Positions 20,040-64,000 of a DNA stretch of 64,000 nucleotides are shown here, piece by piece. Origin of the DNA: an uncultured Lachnospiraceae bacterium (GTDB lineage Bacteria > Bacillota > Clostridia > Lachnospirales > Lachnospiraceae); assembly GCA_949132985.1 (NCBI GenBank), contig CASCGD010000002.1, positions 18,269-82,268 on the forward strand, written 5' to 3'. The first letter of the stretch is position 1. Each line of letters begins with the position of its first letter. Below the pieces are notes generated by a model. It saw only the letters and a program-made list of their open reading frames with translations. It searched no databases and had not been told where the DNA came from. A program made the position numbers and the translations under genes.

Positions 20040-21116
20040 TCACTCATTTCCATTCATCGTCGCCAGCTTTTTCGCCTGATCCGCCGCGATACAAGCGTCG
20101 ATGATCTCCTGGATATCCCCGTTCATGATCTTGTCCAGCTTGTAGAGCGTCAGATTGATGCGGTGGTCTGTCACACGCCCCTGCGGGAAATTGTAGGTGC
20201 GGATCTTCTCGGAGCGGTCTCCGGTTCCGATCTGGCTGCGGCGCTCCGCGGCCTCCGCGTCCTGCTGCTTTTGCAGCTCCAGGTCATAGAGTTTCGCGCG
20301 CAGAAGCGCAAATGCCTTTTCCTTATTCTGAAGCTGCGACTTCTCGGTCTGGCTGTAGATGACGATGCCGGTGGGATAATGGGTGAGACGCACCGCCGAG
20401 TCCGTGGTATTGACGCACTGGCCGCCGTTTCCGGAGGCACGCATCACGTCGATACGGATATCCTTCTCATCGATCTGGATGTCCACATCTTCCGCCTCAG
20501 GCATGACCGCCACGGAACAGGTGGATGTCTGGATACGCCCCTGAGACTCAGTCTCAGGCACACGCTGTACCCGATGTACACCGGATTCATATTTTAATAC
20601 GGAATAAGCGCCTGCACCCGTCACCATAAAATTCACCGACTTCATGCCGCCTATGCCCGTCTCGTCCGCCTCCAGCGTCTCCACCTTCCAGCGGCGCCCC
20701 TCCGCATAGTGCACGTACATGCGATAGATCTCCGCCGCAAACAAAGCGGCCTCCTCGCCGCCTGCACCCGCCCGGATCTCCACGATCACGTTCTTGTCGT
20801 CGTTGGGATCCTTCGGGAGAAGCAAAATCTTAAGCTCTCCTTCCAGGCGCGCCACACCCTCTTTCGCCTCGGAAAGCTCCTCCTTGGCAAGCTCCTTCAT
20901 CTCCTCGTCACTCTCCTCGTCCAGAATCGCCAGAGAGTCCTCAATGGCCTGCCTGTATTTTTTATATTCGCGAAAAGCCTCCACAATGGGAGTTAGATCG
21001 CTCTGCTCCTTCATCAGCCTGCGGAAGCGGTTCGAGTCATTCGCCACATCCGGCTCGGAGAGCTCGCTCATGATCTCCTCGTAGCGAACCAGTAAATCCT
21101 CTAATTTATCAAACAT
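20040..21116 (-). CDS. prfA: Peptide chain release factor 1
   Basis: [43 protein letters not shown] (GGQ motif); followed by prmC-type synteny. Confidence 0.96.
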
Positions 21117-21149: not shown

Positions 21150-21336
21150 AAATGCTCCGTAGCAGATGCACGCATTTCGTCCTCGCGGCAGTCGCCAAAT
21201 ATCCGTGCGAGCACGGCTACTTGGCTCGTTGCCCGCGGGAATGAAATGCTCCGTAGCAGATGCACGCATTTCATCCTCGCGGCAGTCGCCAAATATCCGT
21301 GCGAGCACGGCTACTTGGCTCGTTGCCCGCGGGAAT
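21150..21336. repeat. Two tandem ~94-bp direct repeats in the prfA 5' leader
   Basis: aaatgctccgtagcagatgcacgcatttc(g/a)tcctcgcggcagtcgccaaatatccgtgcgagcacggctacttggctcgttgcccgcggga repeated with period 94. Confidence 0.95.
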
Positions 21337-38875: not shown

Positions 38876-39164
38876 GTCTTTGGTTAAATGTAAATCGGAT
38901 TCACCTTTTTTCCCTTGATTTCAAAAAAAACAAGTGCTATGGTATTGTTACGGCTGAGATGGACATTTGCATTCCGTGGAAATATATTACTGCAGCGGTT
39001 CAATATCAATGTTTTTACTTGTATAAATTTCTATCTGCTACGTTGTCATCAATCGCTGTGGCACTCGCTGCAGCTCAATCTTTTGCCTTGCAGAATAAAA
39101 ATTGATTCTGCGTAAAATTCATTGATATTTAACCGCCATAGTAATACATACAACACAAAGGCAG

Positions 39165-39264
39165 AAACACCCTGCGGGTATACCTGTTTGCCAAAAAGCA
39201 GGCTATTAAGGAGGAAACACCCTGCGGGTATACCTGTTTGCCAAAAAGCAGGCTATTAAGGAGG
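39165..39264 (+). repeat. Two perfect tandem 50-bp repeats, each ending in a Shine-Dalgarno, immediately upstream of malic enzyme
   Basis: aaacaccctgcgggtatacctgtttgccaaaaagcaggctattaaggagg repeated twice, ATG at 39270. Confidence 0.98.
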
Positions 39265-39269
39265 AAAAT

Positions 39270-40420
<1,151 letters not shown>

Positions 40421-40424
<4 letters not shown>

Positions 40425-41440
40425 GCGGGCAGGCAGGCCGCAGGGAGCAGGCACAAGACGCATTTCCCCTGCCAAAGCATCCGCCCTCAGGCGGGATCGG
40501 CAGGCAGGCACCGCGCTGGGGCGAAAAGCCCTACCACAGCCTGGATTTCCACCTAAAGCAGCACTTCGGGGAAAAAGTGTACCGACTCTCCCTAAACGGC
40601 GGCTTCTCCTGCCCGAACCGGGACGGCACACGCGGCACATCCGGCTGTCTCTTTTGCAGTGCAGGAGGCTCCGGCGACTTTGCGGCGGATCAGGGGCTTC
40701 CCATCCCTGCACAGCTTGTGCAGGCGCGGGAAAAAATTGCCGCCAAGACAAACGCCCGCCTCTTTATCGCCTACTTTCAGGCGTACACGAACACCTACGC
40801 AAATACCGGCTATCTGCGCCGTGTTTTTTCCGAGGCGCTTGCACCGCCCGATATCGCCGCGCTCTCCATTGCGACCCGGGCGGACTGCCTTGGCGACGAA
40901 GTGCTCGACCTGCTTAGCGCGCTGCGGGAAACCTTTCACAAGCCTATATGGGTGGAGCTGGGCGTTCAGAGCACCTTCGATGAGACCTTAAGCCGCATGG
41001 CCTGCGGCTTTTCCTATGCCGACTGCCGGCGGGCGATTATGCATTTGCATAACAGAGAAATTCCCGTTGTCGCACATCTGATTCTCGGACTGCCCGGTGA
41101 GACAAAGGAAATGATGCTCACATCACTCTCACGCGTCTGCCGGTTACCCGTCAACGGGTTAAAGCTGCAGCTGCTCCACGTGCTGGCAGGCACAGGACTG
41201 GCCAGAGAATATGAAAAATCTCCCTTCCCGGTGTTCAAAATGGAGGATTACTGCCAGTTTATCGTTTCCTGCATCGAACGTATTCCGCCTCAAATCGTAC
41301 TGCACCGCATCACCGGAGACGGGCCAAAGAGCCTGCTCATGGCACCTGCATGGAGCGGCGATAAAAAACGCGTGTTAAACCGCATCCATCAGATTTTTTC
41401 TGAGCGCAGCACCTGGCAGGGACGGCTGGCCGAAGACTGA
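40421..41440 (+). CDS. TIGR01212-type radical SAM protein (YhcC-like)
   Basis: NGGFSCPNRDGTRGTSGCLFC radical SAM-type cysteines; YFQAYTNTYA; VELGVQSTFDETL; GTG start overlaps the upstream stop. Confidence 0.9.
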
Positions 41441-42780: not shown

Positions 42781-43541
42781 TGATGATCTCCCAGCCGCTG
42801 CCGCACGATCTCATAGGAGAGCACGCCGCAGGCAACCGACGCGTTTAAAGAATCGATATCGCCCTTCATCGGAATCGCCGCTGTCATATCACAGCGCTCC
42901 CGCACCAGCTTGCCGACACCCTCTCCCTCGCTGCCGATCACAACACCGATTGGACCCGTCAGATTCAGGTCGTACATCGGCGTACCTCCCATGTCCGCGC
43001 AGACAAACCACATGCCCTCTTTTTTCAACTCCTCAATCGTTGCGGAAAGGTTCGTCACCTTTGCCACCGGTGTGTAGTTGATGGCTCCGGCGGAAGCCTT
43101 TGCGACGACTGCCGTAAGTCCTGCCGCACGCCGCTTCGGAATAACAACCCCGTGGGCACCTGCCAGATTGGCCGTTCGGATGATGGCACCCAGATTATGA
43201 GGATCCTCGATGCCGTCCAGCAGGATCAAAAAGGGCGCTTCCCCCTTCTGTCTCGCGCGCGCCAGAAGATCCTCCACCTGTGCATAGGCATAGACAGCGG
43301 TCCGGGCAATCACGCCCTGATGCCTTCCGGTTTCCGAGAGCTGGTCCAGGCGCTCCTTCGTCACAAAATCCAGGATCGTATCGTGCTTTCTCGCCTCGCG
43401 GATAATGGTGCGCACCGGCCCGTCCTGACAGCCGTCCAGAACATAGAGCTTGTCCACCGTCTTTCCCGAGCGCAACGCCTCCAAAACGGCGTTGCGCCCC
43501 TCGATCTTTGTCTCCGCTGTCTCGAATTTCATTTCTCCCAT
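42777..43541 (-). CDS. rlmB: 23S rRNA (guanosine-2'-O)-methyltransferase RlmB (SpoU family)
   Basis: EGRNAVLEALRSGKTVDKLYV; LDGIEDPHNLGAIIRTANLAGAHGVVIPKR; IGSEGEGV. Confidence 0.94.
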   Translation of the reverse strand: MGEMKFETAETKIEGRNAVLEALRSGKTVDKLYVLDGCQDGPVRTIIREARKHDTILDFVTKERLDQLSETGRHQGVIARTAVYAYAQVEDLLARARQKGEAPFLILLDGIEDPHNLGAIIRTANLAGAHGVVIPKRRAAGLTAVVAKASAGAINYTPVAKVTNLSATIEELKKEGMWFVCADMGGTPMYDLNLTGPIGVVIGSEGEGVGKLVRERCDMTAAIPMKGDIDSLNASVACGVLSYEIVRQRLGDHQ

Positions 43542-43586: not shown

Positions 43587-43708
43587 TTTCCCCGCAGCCG
43601 GGCATCTCCCACACTCTGTTTCACGGTTTTCCCGCAACCGGATAAATCCCGCGCGCTGTTTCACGTTTTTTCCTGCAGCCGGATAAATCCGGTGTGCATT
43701 TTCACGGT
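43587..43708. repeat. Three imperfect ~40-41-bp tandem repeats in the mrnC-rlmB intercistronic region
   Basis: cccgcagccgggcatctcccacactctgtttcacggt / cccgcaaccggataaatcccgcgcgctgtttcacgtt / cctgcagccggataaatccggtgtgcattttcacggt. Confidence 0.8.
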
Positions 43709-44244
43709 TCCTGTTCCGGTGCCTCTTCATAAGTCTGCCGCTTCAGACACTGCCGTTTTTTTGCGGAAGGAAAACGCCCGCGCCGGTTGTGCGCCTCCGC
43801 AAACCGCTCCTCCTTTGGCGTATACGAATCCAGTGCCAGTTTCACAAGTTCCATCATGCGCGCCGTCTGGTCCGTCAGATAGAGGTAACCCATGAGCGCC
43901 TCAAACCCGGTAGCCCTGCGGTAATCGCCAACCGAAGCATTTTTTGCCATCGTCGGAGACTTCGCATTGCGCCCGCGCCGATAAACGCGCTCCTCCTCCC
44001 CGCTTAAGTTCGGCAAAAGAATGTCCATCATCTCCGACTGCGCCTCCGCTTTGACGAGCTGGCTCGTCTGGCGGTGCAAAAGCCTGGCCTTCGTGTTCAT
44101 CCGTGCCGTCATGACCGAGCGCACAATCAGCTCGTAAATACCGTCGCCGATGTAGGCCAGCGTCAGCGGATTCACCGTGCGGATATCAGCCTCCTGCGTG
44201 ATTCCGAATTGTTTCTTAATGTATGCATTTAAGCCCGTTTCCAT
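43702..44244 (-). CDS. mrnC: Mini-ribonuclease III
   Basis: [46 protein letters not shown]; downstream of cysS. Confidence 0.93.
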
Positions 44245-46334: not shown

Positions 46335-47444
46335 TTATTCTCCCGCAGAGCCAGATCCTGCGGCAGCTTTTTCTTTCTCCAGGTCACGGTAATGCGCCAG
46401 CACCATCATGGCAATCCGAAAGGTCATGGCATCGTCAAACCGGCGAATGTCCAGTCCGATCAGCTTTTCCAGCCGCTCCAGCCGGTAAACAAGCGTATTC
46501 CGATGTAAATAGAGTTGACGCGCCGTCTCGGAAATATTCAGGCTGTTTTCGAAAAACCGGCGGATCGTCAGCTTCATCTCTTCATCGATTTTCTGATCCG
46601 GCAGCTCCTTTCCAAAAATCTCCTGCAAAAACAGCTCGCACAGCTCCCAGGGAAGCTCGTAGATGAGCCGCGCAATGCCAAGCCTTGCGTAGGCCGCCAC
46701 CTCCCGCGGCTCCTGAAACAGACCCGCAATGCGAAGCGCCAGCGCCGCCTCGCTTCTCGCGTCAATAAGCTCCGGGAGCGTCTCTTTCGGCGTGCTGTAA
46801 CCCACACGAACCTTAAACATCAGCTCGGAGAGCATCGTGTCCACCGCCGAGAGCGCATCGTTTTTCGCCCGCTCCGCCGTCACGCCCTTCTCGTACGCCT
46901 TCACAAGCGCCAGATGCGTCTCGTCCTGCAAAAACAGCACATCCTGCTTTCCGTCTGCAAAAATACTGCCGAGCATCCGCAGCGTATTCGTATCCGCCAG
47001 CGGCTGCGACAATTCAAAAAGGTATACCACACGCGGCGCATCCTTCAGCTTCACCCGTCCAGCCAGCTTATACAGCTCCCCCGCAGGAATCTCCCCAGCA
47101 AGAAGCGCTGCCACGAAAGCATTTTTATCGATATCCTTTTTGACCGTGCTAAAAAAAAGCTGCAGCTCATTTGCCGCCATACGCCCGGGCACAAGCAAAG
47201 ATGCCTCTGCCCCCTCCGCCGCCAAAAGCAGGATATCCCCGCCCACACGGACCGGAAACACCGTAAAGCCATCCAGCCGCTGCTCAAGCGCCGGCTGCTC
47301 AAAGGCCCGCAAAAGCTGCTCCTTTGCCACCGCTCCCTCTTTTGCTGTACCCGCCACATACTCTCCGGGCGGCTCGAAGAGCGCAAAACGTACCCCTGAA
47401 ATCTCCGTCAGCTCCTCTAAAATCCGCCGTAATTTTTTATGCAT
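46335..47444 (-). CDS. PucR/CdaR-type helix-turn-helix regulator
   Basis: C-terminal [57 protein letters not shown]; start [17 protein letters not shown] with a GGAGG SD. Confidence 0.85.
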
Positions 47445-47586
47445 ATTTCCTCCATATTGCCTGCCTTCTGGCATTCAGGTATACCCGCAGGGTATTTCCT
47501 CCATATTGCCCGCCTTCTGGCATTCAGGTATACCCGCAGGGTATTTCCTCCGTTTTGCCCGCCTTCTGGCATTCAGGTATACCCGC
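47445..47586 (-). repeat. Three near-perfect 49-bp tandem repeats filling the aroF-like/PucR intergenic space, each with an SD
   Basis: Plus-strand unit tatttcctccatattgcc(t/c)gccttctggcattcaggtatacccgcaggg, period 49 (starts 47444, 47493, 47542). Confidence 0.97.
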
Positions 47587-48621
47587 CTACACGCACATCT
47601 CCGCAATCGTATCGATCAGGCGTCTCGTATCCTCCCATCCAAGGCACGGGTCCGTGATGGATTTGCCATAAATCATATGCTCGCCGATGGGCTGGCAGCC
47701 CTCCTCCAGATAGCTTTCGATCATAAGGCCCTTCACCATCCTGCGCATATCTTTGTTGTGCTGCCGGTTGTGCAGGATTTCCTTTGCAATGCGTATCTGC
47801 TCCCTGTACTGCTTGTTGGAGTTCGAGTGATTCGTGTCCACAATCACCGCCGGGTTCTCAAAGGAATCCGGGCGGTAATCCCGTATGAGCTGCATCATGT
47901 CCTCATAGTGATAGTTGGGATGGCACTCGCCCCTGCTGTTCACAAAACCGCGGAGAATACAGTGTGCCAGCGGATTACCGCTGGTGCTTACATTGTAGCC
48001 GCGATAGATAAATGAAGTGGGATTCTGCGCCGCCCGAACGGCATTGAGCATGACGGACATGTCGCCGCTGGTGGGGTTTTTCATGCCCACAGGGATATCC
48101 ATGCCGCTGGCAGTGAGCCGGTGCTGCTGGTTTTCCACCGAACGCGCGCCAATGGCCTCGTAAGACAAAATATCATCCAGATAACTTCTGTTCTCCGGGT
48201 AAAGCATCTCATCCGCCGCCGTCAGGCCGCTCTCGCCCATGGCACGAATGTGCATTTTTCGGATGGAGACAATCCCACGGTAGAGATCCGGCGCCCGGGT
48301 CGGATCCGGCTGGTGCAGCATCCCCTTGTAGCCCGCACCGGTAGTGCGTGGCTTGTTCGTGTAAATGCGCGGAATCAAAATCAGCCGGTCCCCTACCGCC
48401 TCACTGACCTTCGCCAGCCGGCTCACATACTCGCAGACCGAGTCCTCATTGTCCGCGGAGCACGGGCCGATAATCACAAGAAACTTATCGGACGCTCCGG
48501 TAAACACCTCTCTGATCTGCGCATCCCTCGCCCGCTTCATCTCCGCCAGATCGGGCGCGATCGGATATTCCATCTTTAAAATTTCCGGCTCCGGCAGCCG
48601 GTTATGAATCGTCATCGACAT
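47587..48621 (-). CDS. aroF: 3-deoxy-7-phosphoheptulonate synthase (AroF/G/H class I)
   Basis: FLVIIGPCSADNEDSVCEYVSRLAKV; PRIYTNKPRTTGAGYKGMLHQPDP; GMKNPTSGDMSVMLNAVRAAQ; start may be 48633. Confidence 0.94.
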   Translation of the reverse strand: MSMTIHNRLPEPEILKMEYPIAPDLAEMKRARDAQIREVFTGASDKFLVIIGPCSADNEDSVCEYVSRLAKVSEAVGDRLILIPRIYTNKPRTTGAGYKGMLHQPDPTRAPDLYRGIVSIRKMHIRAMGESGLTAADEMLYPENRSYLDDILSYEAIGARSVENQQHRLTASGMDIPVGMKNPTSGDMSVMLNAVRAAQNPTSFIYRGYNVSTSGNPLAHCILRGFVNSRGECHPNYHYEDMMQLIRDYRPDSFENPAVIVDTNHSNSNKQYREQIRIAKEILHNRQHNKDMRRMVKGLMIESYLEEGCQPIGEHMIYGKSITDPCLGWEDTRRLIDTIAEMCV

Positions 48622-48626
48622 TTGTA

Positions 48627-49277
48627 TTAACACCTCATCTTGTCATTTTCCTCTTCTTCCAGAAGCTCCTCCGCCGACATGTACTTGCGGAATACCTGCT
48701 CCAGCACACGGTTGATGAGCACCATCGCAATCGCCGGCACAAACCACGTAAACGGCATCAAAAACCAGCACACATAGATGGCCGCAGCCAGAATCAGCAG
48801 CACAACCAGCGACCGTGGGAGATTGGCAATCGCCATGATCGCGGCATTTTTCAGCGTCGCCTTACAGCCATTCTCAAACCGCGCAAGATAGGCGAACACG
48901 TACATAAACCAAACCAGCGCCATCGCCGCAAGCGCGATAAAAAAATACGCCAGCATGCCGACAAAGGTTCCTGTTTTTAAATATGCCATACAAATCCTGA
49001 TATCGAAAGAAAATACCAAAAATATGACAAAAAACAACAGCCACAGCTTCGTCGCCTGCTTAAAGTTGCTGCGAAACGACGACCAGTATTCCTTCCAGAT
49101 TCCGCTTTTCTGATTGCGGATCACCTTGTGAGTGGTATAGTAAAAAGCCGTCGTTGCGGCCCCCACCGTAAAAAGCGGAATACAGCTGATCAGCCACATC
49201 AAATTCAAAAGAACCGCGTCCACCGCGGTGCTCAAGGCAGACCAGAGCTTATTATTCGGATTGAAAAATCCCGTCAT
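48627..49277 (-). CDS. DUF624 (YesL-like) membrane protein
   Basis: MTGFFNPNNKLWSALSTAVDAVLLNLMWLISCIPLFTVGAATTAFYYTTHKVIR. Confidence 0.88.
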   Translation of the reverse strand: MTGFFNPNNKLWSALSTAVDAVLLNLMWLISCIPLFTVGAATTAFYYTTHKVIRNQKSGIWKEYWSSFRSNFKQATKLWLLFFVIFLVFSFDIRICMAYLKTGTFVGMLAYFFIALAAMALVWFMYVFAYLARFENGCKATLKNAAIMAIANLPRSLVVLLILAAAIYVCWFLMPFTWFVPAIAMVLINRVLEQVFRKYMSAEELLEEEENDKMRC

Positions 49278-59712: not shown

Positions 59713-61346
<1,634 letters not shown>

Positions 61347-61429: not shown

Positions 61430-62686
61430 TTACCTCTTTCTCGCCACGATCAGCGCATCCTCCTCAAAGGGATGCATCCCGACCACGGTCTTTCCCTCTT
61501 TGATCTCCACATCCACGTAAGCCGCGAAGCGCTCCGCCAGGCCCAGTGCCCGGATATCCCAGCCGCTTAAATCCGAAGCCAGCCGCACCTTCGTATTCGA
61601 CGGCACATACACCAGAAGCAGATGTTCCCCGGCCTGCCCCACACGGATATCCCCTGTGCCGTTTTCGAGAAGCTCCTGCTTTGGTACAAGCGCATATGCG
61701 TTCAGCTCTTCCAAAAGCATTTTCAGATACCCGTAATCCCATGCGCCCGGAAACGCCATGGCCTCCTCCCAGGACTTTGGCATGTCAAAGCCCTCGCCCA
61801 GCAGCGTGTGGAAGCCCTTCTTCACCTTGTGCCAGCTGTAGATACCCGCCGCGCCGTAGGTAATGCCAGCGCAGGCGCCGGACAAAACGCTCACCCAGGC
61901 CGCGCGGCGCACATCCCGGCGCGCCCAGCGCCCGTACATATTCCCCGAATAGCCCATCTGCTCATAGCAGGGCTCGGAGTTGATGAGCGGCTTCCCGGGA
62001 TATTTCTCCTGCATCGTCTCGCTGAGCGCATAGGGCATGGAGAGATCCTTCGCATTGTGTCCGCTCTGGTAAAAGCACAAATCCAGCATTGTGTACAGCT
62101 CTTTTGGGATCTCCGAATAGCGTCCCTTGATGTGGGTCGTAAACAGGCAGTCTGGTGCAAACTCCCTTAAAATTTGCCCCACGTGCACATAATAGCGTGT
62201 CGTCTCCTCCTCCGGAAAATCCGTATCGCCGCTGATGATATAGAGCGGCTCCAGATCGGTGAACGTCTCATGCACCTTTCTCACGTAATTTTCCAGACAG
62301 TCAAACGGTAAAATCCCGCCCGGAAACATCTTGGATGCCCAGGTACCAGGCACATAGTTGCTCCACAAAACAACAAGCGCCAACTCAAAGCCCTCCCGCT
62401 TCGCCGTCTCGCACATGTTTCTCGCATGGGCAAAATAAGCGTCGTTCAGGCGGTGCGGATCGTTTTCCACAAACGGCTTATAATCCAGATCTGTCACGGA
62501 CGCGTCCCACTGGGGAAGAATGTTGATCTGGATCGTGTTAAAACCCTGCGCCTTCCGCTTGTACAGATAAAAATCCCACTCCTCGTCGGTGATGTTCGTA
62601 AACGCCGACCAGCATGTGTCCGCCAGATAAAAGAACGGCGCTCCATCCTTTAAAATATTTTTTTTATTGTCCGAAATCTGCAGCAT
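61430..62686 (-). CDS. DUF4038-like (apiosidase/GH140-like) glycoside hydrolase
   Basis: MLQISDNKKNILKDGAPFFYLADTCWSAFTNITDEEWDFYLYKRKAQGFNTIQINILPQWD; start refined to 62686. Confidence 0.8.
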   Translation of the reverse strand: MLQISDNKKNILKDGAPFFYLADTCWSAFTNITDEEWDFYLYKRKAQGFNTIQINILPQWDASVTDLDYKPFVENDPHRLNDAYFAHARNMCETAKREGFELALVVLWSNYVPGTWASKMFPGGILPFDCLENYVRKVHETFTDLEPLYIISGDTDFPEEETTRYYVHVGQILREFAPDCLFTTHIKGRYSEIPKELYTMLDLCFYQSGHNAKDLSMPYALSETMQEKYPGKPLINSEPCYEQMGYSGNMYGRWARRDVRRAAWVSVLSGACAGITYGAAGIYSWHKVKKGFHTLLGEGFDMPKSWEEAMAFPGAWDYGYLKMLLEELNAYALVPKQELLENGTGDIRVGQAGEHLLLVYVPSNTKVRLASDLSGWDIRALGLAERFAAYVDVEIKEGKTVVGMHPFEEDALIVARKR

Positions 62687-64000
62687 TGCTTTCCTCCTCT
62701 TTGTCATGTTTTTGACATTCCGGTGTCCCCAAAGGGTGCTTCCTCCTGATAACCAGACACCAGTCGTTTTGATCCGGCTTCGCCGGAAGCTTCCACGTAT
62801 CGCCAAAAACCTCAAACTCCTGCGCATCCTTCCCATATTCACCGCTTCGGGGATTAAACCACCGCATCACATAGGTGCCCGCACAAAAACCGTGAAGCTC
62901 GCCGCTTTTTCGCGTAGACGCAGGGTAATAGAGCACGAAACGCCCACGGTCCTTTGTCACCGTGACAAGCGGCAGCTTTTTCCCAAACGGGTCTCCGAGA
63001 TCATCCGATCCGGTACGGTACGGATACAGCTCCCAAAACCTCTGCTCCTCATAAAACGTCCGAAAATATCCCATCTGCGTCCCGCCGGGGCCATCGATGG
63101 CCTGCGCCCAGGTCACGTCAAACCGGTTAAACAGGGACATGGCATTTTCCTGCCCCTTTTCCCAGACGACATCCCAGATTCCCTGAGCGCCGTAGGTATA
63201 GCCGCAGCCGCCCGCCTGTATCGTCAGATACGCCACGCGGCGCAGCATCGCATCCGTACAAAGCCGCGTGCCGTTTTCCTCCAGCGTCGAGCAGTACTCG
63301 TAAAATGCCTCGCCCTCCACAAAGGGTTTATCTCCGTGTTCTCTCAAAAATACTCTGTAGTCGTCCGCACTCACCACAAAGTCGCCGTGCCCCGCCTGAT
63401 TCAAGGTGAAATCCAGCCATTCCTCGTCCTGATAGTAGGACGCAAACGGCCGCTCGTTCGTATAATGGGCAGTCATCAGATGATGGTAGCCGTCCAGCCC
63501 GCGCATGTATAAGGCAACCTTTCGCCACTCATCCACGTAGAAGAGCCGACGCGCCTTATCGTAACCGCCCACCTCCCCCGCCAGCGTCCACACCACAGGC
63601 AACGCACCGTAGCGGGCGATGATGTAGCGCGCCAGGTTCTGGTATGTCTCCACATGATTCTCAATGGACATAAACCAGGCAAGCCCTATCGCATTGACAA
63701 TACCAAAATCCGCCAGATACTGCATCCTGCGGTCAAGCTCCCTCTGATAAAACTCCACGTTGGGAAGCCCCGGACTTTTCCAGTAATAAGCGTCGCCGCC
63801 CATCAGCGCATCGCTCCGCAGATTCGTCTGATAGACAGTATACCCCTGCTCCCGTCTCCGGTCAATCATCCCCCTGAACATGCTCTCCATTCCCGGGTGG
63901 TTCGACTCGTCCCAGCGCTCCCGGTAAGAAAACTCCCAGTGCGTGTCCCCGAGCCAGAAAAACGGCGTTCCGTCCGCATAAGTAAAATAGCGTTTGTCCG
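62664..64000 (-). CDS. Second DUF4038-like glycoside hydrolase, N-terminus beyond window
   Basis: Open to the window edge: FTYADGTPFFWLGDTHWEFSYRERWDESNHPGMESMFRGMIDRRREQGYTVYQTNL. Confidence 0.8.
   Translation of the reverse strand, partial: DKRYFTYADGTPFFWLGDTHWEFSYRERWDESNHPGMESMFRGMIDRRREQGYTVYQTNLRSDALMGGDAYYWKSPGLPNVEFYQRELDRRMQYLADFGIVNAIGLAWFMSIENHVETYQNLARYIIARYGALPVVWTLAGEVGGYDKARRLFYVDEWRKVALYMRGLDGYHHLMTAHYTNERPFASYYQDEEWLDFTLNQAGHGDFVVSADDYRVFLREHGDKPFVEGEAFYEYCSTLEENGTRLCTDAMLRRVAYLTIQAGGCGYTYGAQGIWDVVWEKGQENAMSLFNRFDVTWAQAIDGPGGTQMGYFRTFYEEQRFWELYPYRTGSDDLGDPFGKKLPLVTVTKDRGRFVLYYPASTRKSGELHGFCAGTYVMRWFNPRSGEYGKDAQEFEVFGDTWKLPAKPDQNDWCLVIRRKHPLGTPECQKHDKEEESNAADFGQ

Follow-up and report, generated by a model that had tools for sequence, protein, structure and literature searches.

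The short tandem repeats that lie between a DAHP synthase gene and a PucR-type regulator gene in an uncultured Lachnospiraceae bacterium belong to a dispersed family of units positioned in sense directly before start codons. They are probably copies of a Lachnospiraceae leader RNA that acts in cis, amplifies in tandem and takes over translation initiation. Sense-only position, covarying hairpins, patchiness, one clean empty site and copy-number change at orthologous sites are observed; a regulatory effect and an enzyme responsible for dispersal have not been shown. The whole stretch of DNA analysed, 64,000 nt in length, is referred to as the window.

The original prediction described three 49 bp repeats occupying an entire intergenic space. 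The array does fill the whole 142 bp, running from the TAG stop codon through the units and AAT to the ATG (47444), and its members are homologous tandem copies, but only two are full length, the first lacking about six bases at its 5′ end. The features of this locus are as follows.

47587–48633, minus strand: upstream gene for a class I (AroF-like) DAHP synthase, ending at the array start (Pfam PF00793)
47546–47588, minus strand: first unit, 5′-truncated (GCGGGTATACC...GGAGGA; sequence; covariance model 34.8 bits)
47497–47545, minus strand: second unit, full 49 bp (sequence; covariance model 69.9 bits)
47448–47496, minus strand: third unit, full 49 bp (sequence; covariance model 72.0 bits)
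47495–47481, then a UACCU linker, then 47473–47458, minus strand: hairpins 1 and 2 of the third unit (structure analyses)
47449–47453, minus strand: GGAGG Shine–Dalgarno (SD) sequence, 3′ end of the last unit (sequence)
46338–47444, minus strand: PucR-type regulator gene, read from the array (Pfam HTH_30, PF13556)

The truncated unit abuts or overlaps the stop codon of the DAHP synthase gene (TAG, 47589–47587), and the ATG of the PucR-type gene lies 3 nt past the end of the last unit (GGAGGA, AAT, ATG). Tandem Repeats Finder (TRF) scored the array at 265, with a period of 49, 2.9 copies and 96 % matches. With up to 2 mismatches, GCGGGTATACCTG occurs 10 times in the window (0.91 expected).

Homology between these units and those in the leader of a malic enzyme gene, also predicted, is supported by both sequence and the covariance model. 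TRF placed the malic-enzyme array at 39164–39267 (50 bp, 2.1 copies, 100 % matches), and its two units are identical to each other. A third site in the window carries a single divergent unit.

39166–39215, plus strand: malic-enzyme leader unit 1, 50 bp (covariance model 58.2 bits)
39216–39265, plus strand: malic-enzyme leader unit 2, 50 bp, ending in GGAGGA and followed by AAATATG (covariance model)
39270–40424, plus strand: malic enzyme gene (Pfam PF00390/PF03949)
62692–62740, minus strand: third site, one divergent unit, preceded by CAGGAGGA and followed by AAGCA-ATG (covariance model 47.8 bits)
61433–62686, minus strand: apiosidase-like gene, downstream of the third site (Pfam)

The divergent unit lies within the upstream reading frame (62664–63890), at its 3′ end, so its arrival probably replaced the C-terminus of the upstream protein. 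Elsewhere, at L326 (in genome G372, compared with L369 in G024) and at L081, the upstream genes, xanthine-dehydrogenase-like and ROK-like as judged by eye, have final codons that seemingly are unit remnants, and the repeats appear to rewrite protein C-termini at both loci.

Two other tandem repeats were noticed in the window. A 94 bp tandem duplication at 21150–21336 on the minus strand, 98 % identical and with many inverted repeats such as GCCGTGCTCGCACGG, lies about 40 nt upstream of an ORF starting at 21116 and is possibly a third leader-repeat family. An imperfect 41 bp tandem repeat (2.3 copies) at 43616–43709 lies beside an ORF starting at 43541 on the minus strand; no SD boundary was seen at this repeat.

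Units are 45–53 nt long and consist of two hairpins, a UACCU linker between them and a purine tract at the 3′ end. The consensus begins AAYACCCUNCGGGUAUACCUGNAUG, and UACCU is invariant in an alignment of 42 units. Hairpin 1 reads A-A-Y-A-CCC-UNC-GGG-U-A-U and is followed by ACCUG-N-A with its invariant CCU; hairpin 2 occurs as UGCC..GGCA, UGUCA..UGACA, UGCCUU..AAGGCA and other variants, with about ten nucleotides between it and the purine end. The claim that each unit ends in GGAGG is correct for this species, in which AAGGAGGA forms the purine end and is used as the SD. It does not extend to other genera, where units usually end in ...GGA, the functional SD (AAGGAG) often comes just after, and the start codon is 12–18 nt past the unit. 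An internal GGAGG is thus a feature of this species and not of the whole family. The AUG in GNAUGCC was considered as the start of a leader ORF and rejected, as it is not in a constant frame with respect to the gene and is absent from some units.

In a set of 102 distinct units taken from other genomes, base pairing is standard in 92.4 % of pair cells, and both sides have changed in 8 of the 11 pairs. The covariation score of these units was reached by none of 500 shuffles, and slid controls scored far lower; an alignment weighted to the source genome agreed on most measures. Both alignments were fitted to the covariance model, which favours structure. Between the orthologous adk leaders of two Diplocloster species hairpin 2 differs by a compensatory change (CCAU/AUGG to CCGU/ACGG), which is structural support independent of the model-fitted alignments. 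Folding z-scores of single units are modest (−1.2 to −2.9). On comparative evidence the unit is a covarying two-hairpin RNA, its compensatory changes exceeding those of shuffles and slid controls.

The source genome (G000) is a draft, metagenome-type assembly of 3.17 Mb in 166 contigs, 87 % complete and with breaks in arrays. Several of its arrays lie at contig ends, so that copy numbers are uncertain. A genome-wide search had been proposed in the original prediction and was carried out here; it returned many matches beyond the PucR-type and malic-enzyme loci. A 17 bp core with up to 2 mismatches gave 45 matches, and its reversed control 1. With a covariance model derived from 18 units there were 63 matches at E≤0.1 in 36 sets, and 62 units at E≤0.001. 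At least one match (window 40758–40825) looks false, and C130 and C165 belong to a single locus as its two ends; the genome therefore holds about 60 units in roughly 33 arrays.

Position was assessed by the presence of an ATG 0–15 nt downstream of the array that opens a reading frame of at least 80 codons; starts are thus ORF-based. In the source genome 25 of 30 testable arrays pass in the sense direction; the antisense figure is 1 of 30, and random positions pass at a rate of 6.9 %. Arrays in other genomes behave likewise (sense 43/62, antisense 3/62, random 9.0 %). The expected preference for sense positions directly upstream of start codons is thus borne out, and with 62 units at E≤0.001 a dispersed, SD-bearing family, not a chance local duplication, accounts for the repeats. 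The five misses in the source genome comprise two arrays followed by a GA-cis RNA module (L161, L064), two followed by ORFs of 46 and 71 aa (L063, L164) and one followed by another, partial unit (L165). In other genera some units are separated from the start codon by tens of nucleotides (e.g. metK, L324) or have no clear ORF after them. Downstream genes include those for PTS EIIA, pyruvate kinase, phosphoglucose isomerase, malic enzyme, a carbamoyltransferase, AhpC and MatE proteins, as well as a histidine kinase, a response regulator, BlaI, PadR, two PucR-type regulators and a serine recombinase. These genes were not found to share a function or pathway, and the Pfam matches of their products span unrelated families.

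The distribution of the family is patchy in the Lachnospiraceae, and it is nearly absent elsewhere in the class. Within the genus there are 62 units in G000, 7 in G006, 1 in G002 and none in seven other genomes. Matches were found in 65 of 397 Lachnospiraceae genomes, a few with at least 15 units; per-genome counts in this survey are lower bounds, 15 candidates having been scored per genome. Across the whole class there are matches in 4 of 392 genomes, of which one is outside the Lachnospiraceae. Among the named carriers are Diplocloster agilis, D. modestus, Lacrimispora celerecrescens, Muricomes intestini and Parablautia muri. A phage origin was considered and set aside, IMG/VR having yielded no exact matches.

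One locus (L063/L305) offers a filled and an empty state. The closest relative, G006, has TTTTTCATTATGAGGA-TGCGATG, and G000 has TTTTTCATGGAGGA, two units ending in GGAGAGGA, and AAAGATG. As aligned, the empty site puts the array directly after the native SD. It is the only empty site that is clean and alignable on both sides, with GAGGA on both sides, and with one genome per species no strain-level empty sites were available. The difference is inferred to be a gain in G000 and not a loss in G006, because G006 has an intact single SD and the element is scarce in the genus. More generally, an SD-like purine tract occurs in the 8 nt before the first unit in 21 of 30 source-genome arrays, compared with 5.8 % of random positions; with flanks resembling unit remnants removed, the count is 14 of 20.

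Units within an array are 94.5 % identical and those of different arrays 80.5 %, which implies that tandem copies arise locally. The leader of a PadR gene contains three units in G000 and two in G006, and a blaI-like gene has units in both. Additionally, four metagenome-assembled genomes (MAGs) differ in whether the leader of one shared ORF contains one exact 51 bp unit. Comparisons of filled and empty sites in Diplocloster at first resembled a constant core with 15–20 bp duplications of host sequence, and the similarity between flank and tail is significant. The tails, however, correspond to 3′ halves of units found at other loci of Diplocloster. These flanks are therefore read as 5′-truncated units and the ‘empty’ sites as contracted arrays, and target-site duplication was rejected as a general rule. 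As a separate observation, the leader at L169, L172, L173 and L213 in rabbit MAGs has a 26 nt hairpin module, AACRCCCGAGNGCGTT...ATGA/TGA, between units; its GGA/TGA|AA boundaries are like those of the units, and it is a shorter module type.

In the proposed mechanism, a unit would be added directly 3′ of the existing SD of a gene, and its own 3′ end, or an SD just after it, would become the working ribosome-binding site. Unit number would then grow and shrink locally by recombination between near-identical tandem copies. The unit is inferred to be transcribed in the mRNA leader and to act there at translation initiation, setting or regulating translation; expression, ribosome-profiling and reporter data are lacking. 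Perhaps a factor reads hairpin 1 together with UACCU, with no partner identified. Spread by a process that favours SDs is likewise an inference, and no enzyme has been identified for it.

A serious rival, although a rather unlikely one, is that the units are selfish or neutral repeats tolerated at SDs since their own SD spares the downstream gene, with hairpins that serve mobility of an IS200/IS605 or REP type and not control. Patchiness within one genus, the lack of a functional theme downstream and the orthologous site without units at its SD (L063/L305) all speak for this, and the genome has one intact and one partial Y1 transposase (Y1_Tnp) gene, whose link to the units has not been shown. 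An IS200/IS605-type layout, with UACCU as a guide against AGG, was retained only within this rival. A selfish repeat with its own SD explains the position of the units, but accounts less well for the compensatory hairpin changes at shared, apparently old orthologous sites (adk). Several sites are, moreover, common to different species, which suggests function after insertion, and no full-length insertion sequence with unit ends was seen, albeit without a systematic search. Control by a DNA operator, in which the dyad ATACCC-TNC-GGGTAT or GGTATACC would be a repressor site, draws on the fact that hairpin 1 is also a dyad in DNA. It is very improbable: a dyad needs no orientation, yet the units are sense-only, and a second, independently covarying hairpin and a fixed position at the SD, not at a promoter, point to RNA.

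Two further rivals concern how the RNA would be read. Pairing of ACCU, or of the CCCU of hairpin 1, with the AGG of the SD could form a switch in which refolding opens and closes the ribosome-binding site. RNAalifold sets CCU against the SD AGG in the source-genome alignment, the minimum-energy fold of the malic-enzyme unit pairs the CCU of hairpin 1 with the SD, and UACCU does not vary across the 42-unit alignment. Such a switch nevertheless seems unlikely, as it would rest on only three base pairs without covariation to test, and in other genera CCU stays constant while the unit has different 3′ ends (AAGGA, AATGA, AAAGA). Burial of the SD by the unit is also weak, its mean computed unpaired probability being 0.52 with the unit and 0.58 with a shuffled unit sequence. 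Binding of CsrA to the repeated A-GGA motifs, with tandem copies giving bridged dimers, is scarcely tenable. Although AGGA/GGA motifs recur about every 49 nt beside the SD and CsrA genes are present in G000 and G006, none was detected in the unit carriers G372, G084, G405, G269, G123, G420 and G255, and many genomes have CsrA without the element. This lack of association largely refutes CsrA as the reader, and the best-conserved part of the unit is hairpin 1 plus UACCU, not GGA. The cis-acting leader RNA remains the favoured reading.

A second module family uses the same kind of site. The GA-cis RNA (RF02987), reportedly from the work of Weinberg and colleagues in 2017, has 143 matches in the source genome, and two tandem copies lie in the window.

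61169–61344, minus strand: two tandem GA-cis RNAs (RF02987; Rfam scan, 76.7 and 74.7 bits)

The Rfam scan of the window found GA-cis only here, and the PucR-type leader array gave no GA-cis match even at E≤10. In a sample of 30 copies the layout is AGGAGGA, module, AGGAGG, start codon; 15 lie directly before a gene start, 12 before another module and 1 antisense. L124, counted among the 12, looks by eye like a direct gene start. Like the unit, GA-cis is a structured RNA upstream of genes, often in tandem, with an SD-bounded sense position; this SD-bounded tandem position was seen here and is outside the Rfam definition. It differs in being 88 nt long, with other conserved motifs, and is unrelated to the unit in sequence and structure. 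GA-cis adjoins units at L064, L065, L090 and L161/L121, and after the same stop codon a unit stands in G000 (L165) where a GA-cis-like copy stands in G006 (L303), the latter called by reading the sequence and not by an Rfam-model score. GA-cis and the unit are read as unrelated modules that occupy sites of one kind, and GA-cis has the look of a dispersed module, not of a regulator of a single gene. Only tentatively can it be suggested, as something that may well not hold, that at least these two unrelated RNA families share a dispersal system that inserts modules at SDs in sense, with genes acquiring, stacking and swapping initiation modules. Were this so, it would constitute a mobile layer of leader-RNA control in the Lachnospiraceae.

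If the leader-RNA reading is correct, a dispersing RNA module targets ribosome-binding sites in these gut bacteria and takes over the initiation of translation at dozens of genes that are otherwise unrelated, its copy number shifting quickly between species. In this way genes with nothing in common could be placed under one post-transcriptional control. The family would also be a concrete case in which to study the spread of small RNA elements that lack an obvious transposase, and GA-cis would be recast as one of several SD-bounded modules and not an isolated cis RNA.

No Rfam family matches the unit, and no description of it was found by sequence or by description in open papers, although a prior description is not excluded. 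A MITE was ruled out because the unit ends (AAYACCC...AAGGA) are not inverted repeats and there is no general target duplication; the units are contiguous and without spacers, and thus not a CRISPR array. REP/BIME, BOX and similar dispersed elements of bacteria are small, hairpin-forming intergenic repeats in many copies, sometimes in tandem, REP being associated with a RAYT transposase and a GTAG motif and BOX having a modular A-B-C build. None of them is known to be tied to an SD in sense, as the unit is. Tandem riboswitches and ribosomal-protein leaders are likewise structured elements of the 5′ leader close to the SD, at times in tandem and each serving one pathway, whereas the genes downstream of the unit have no common pathway. 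The nearest described phenomenon found is the TAACTGA direct repeats of the Beggiatoaceae, tandem repeats lying mostly no more than several nucleotides upstream of start codons, with many sets per genome, no functional theme, a patchy taxonomy and a suggested post-transcriptional role (MacGregor 2015, PMC4679880). Position and lack of theme are like those of the unit. The TAACTGA repeats are, however, 7 nt long with no hairpin build described, and canonical ribosome-binding sites are rare in the regions that hold them (PMC4679880), whereas the unit is about 49 nt long, lacks the TAACTGA heptamer, forms two covarying hairpins and carries or abuts an SD.
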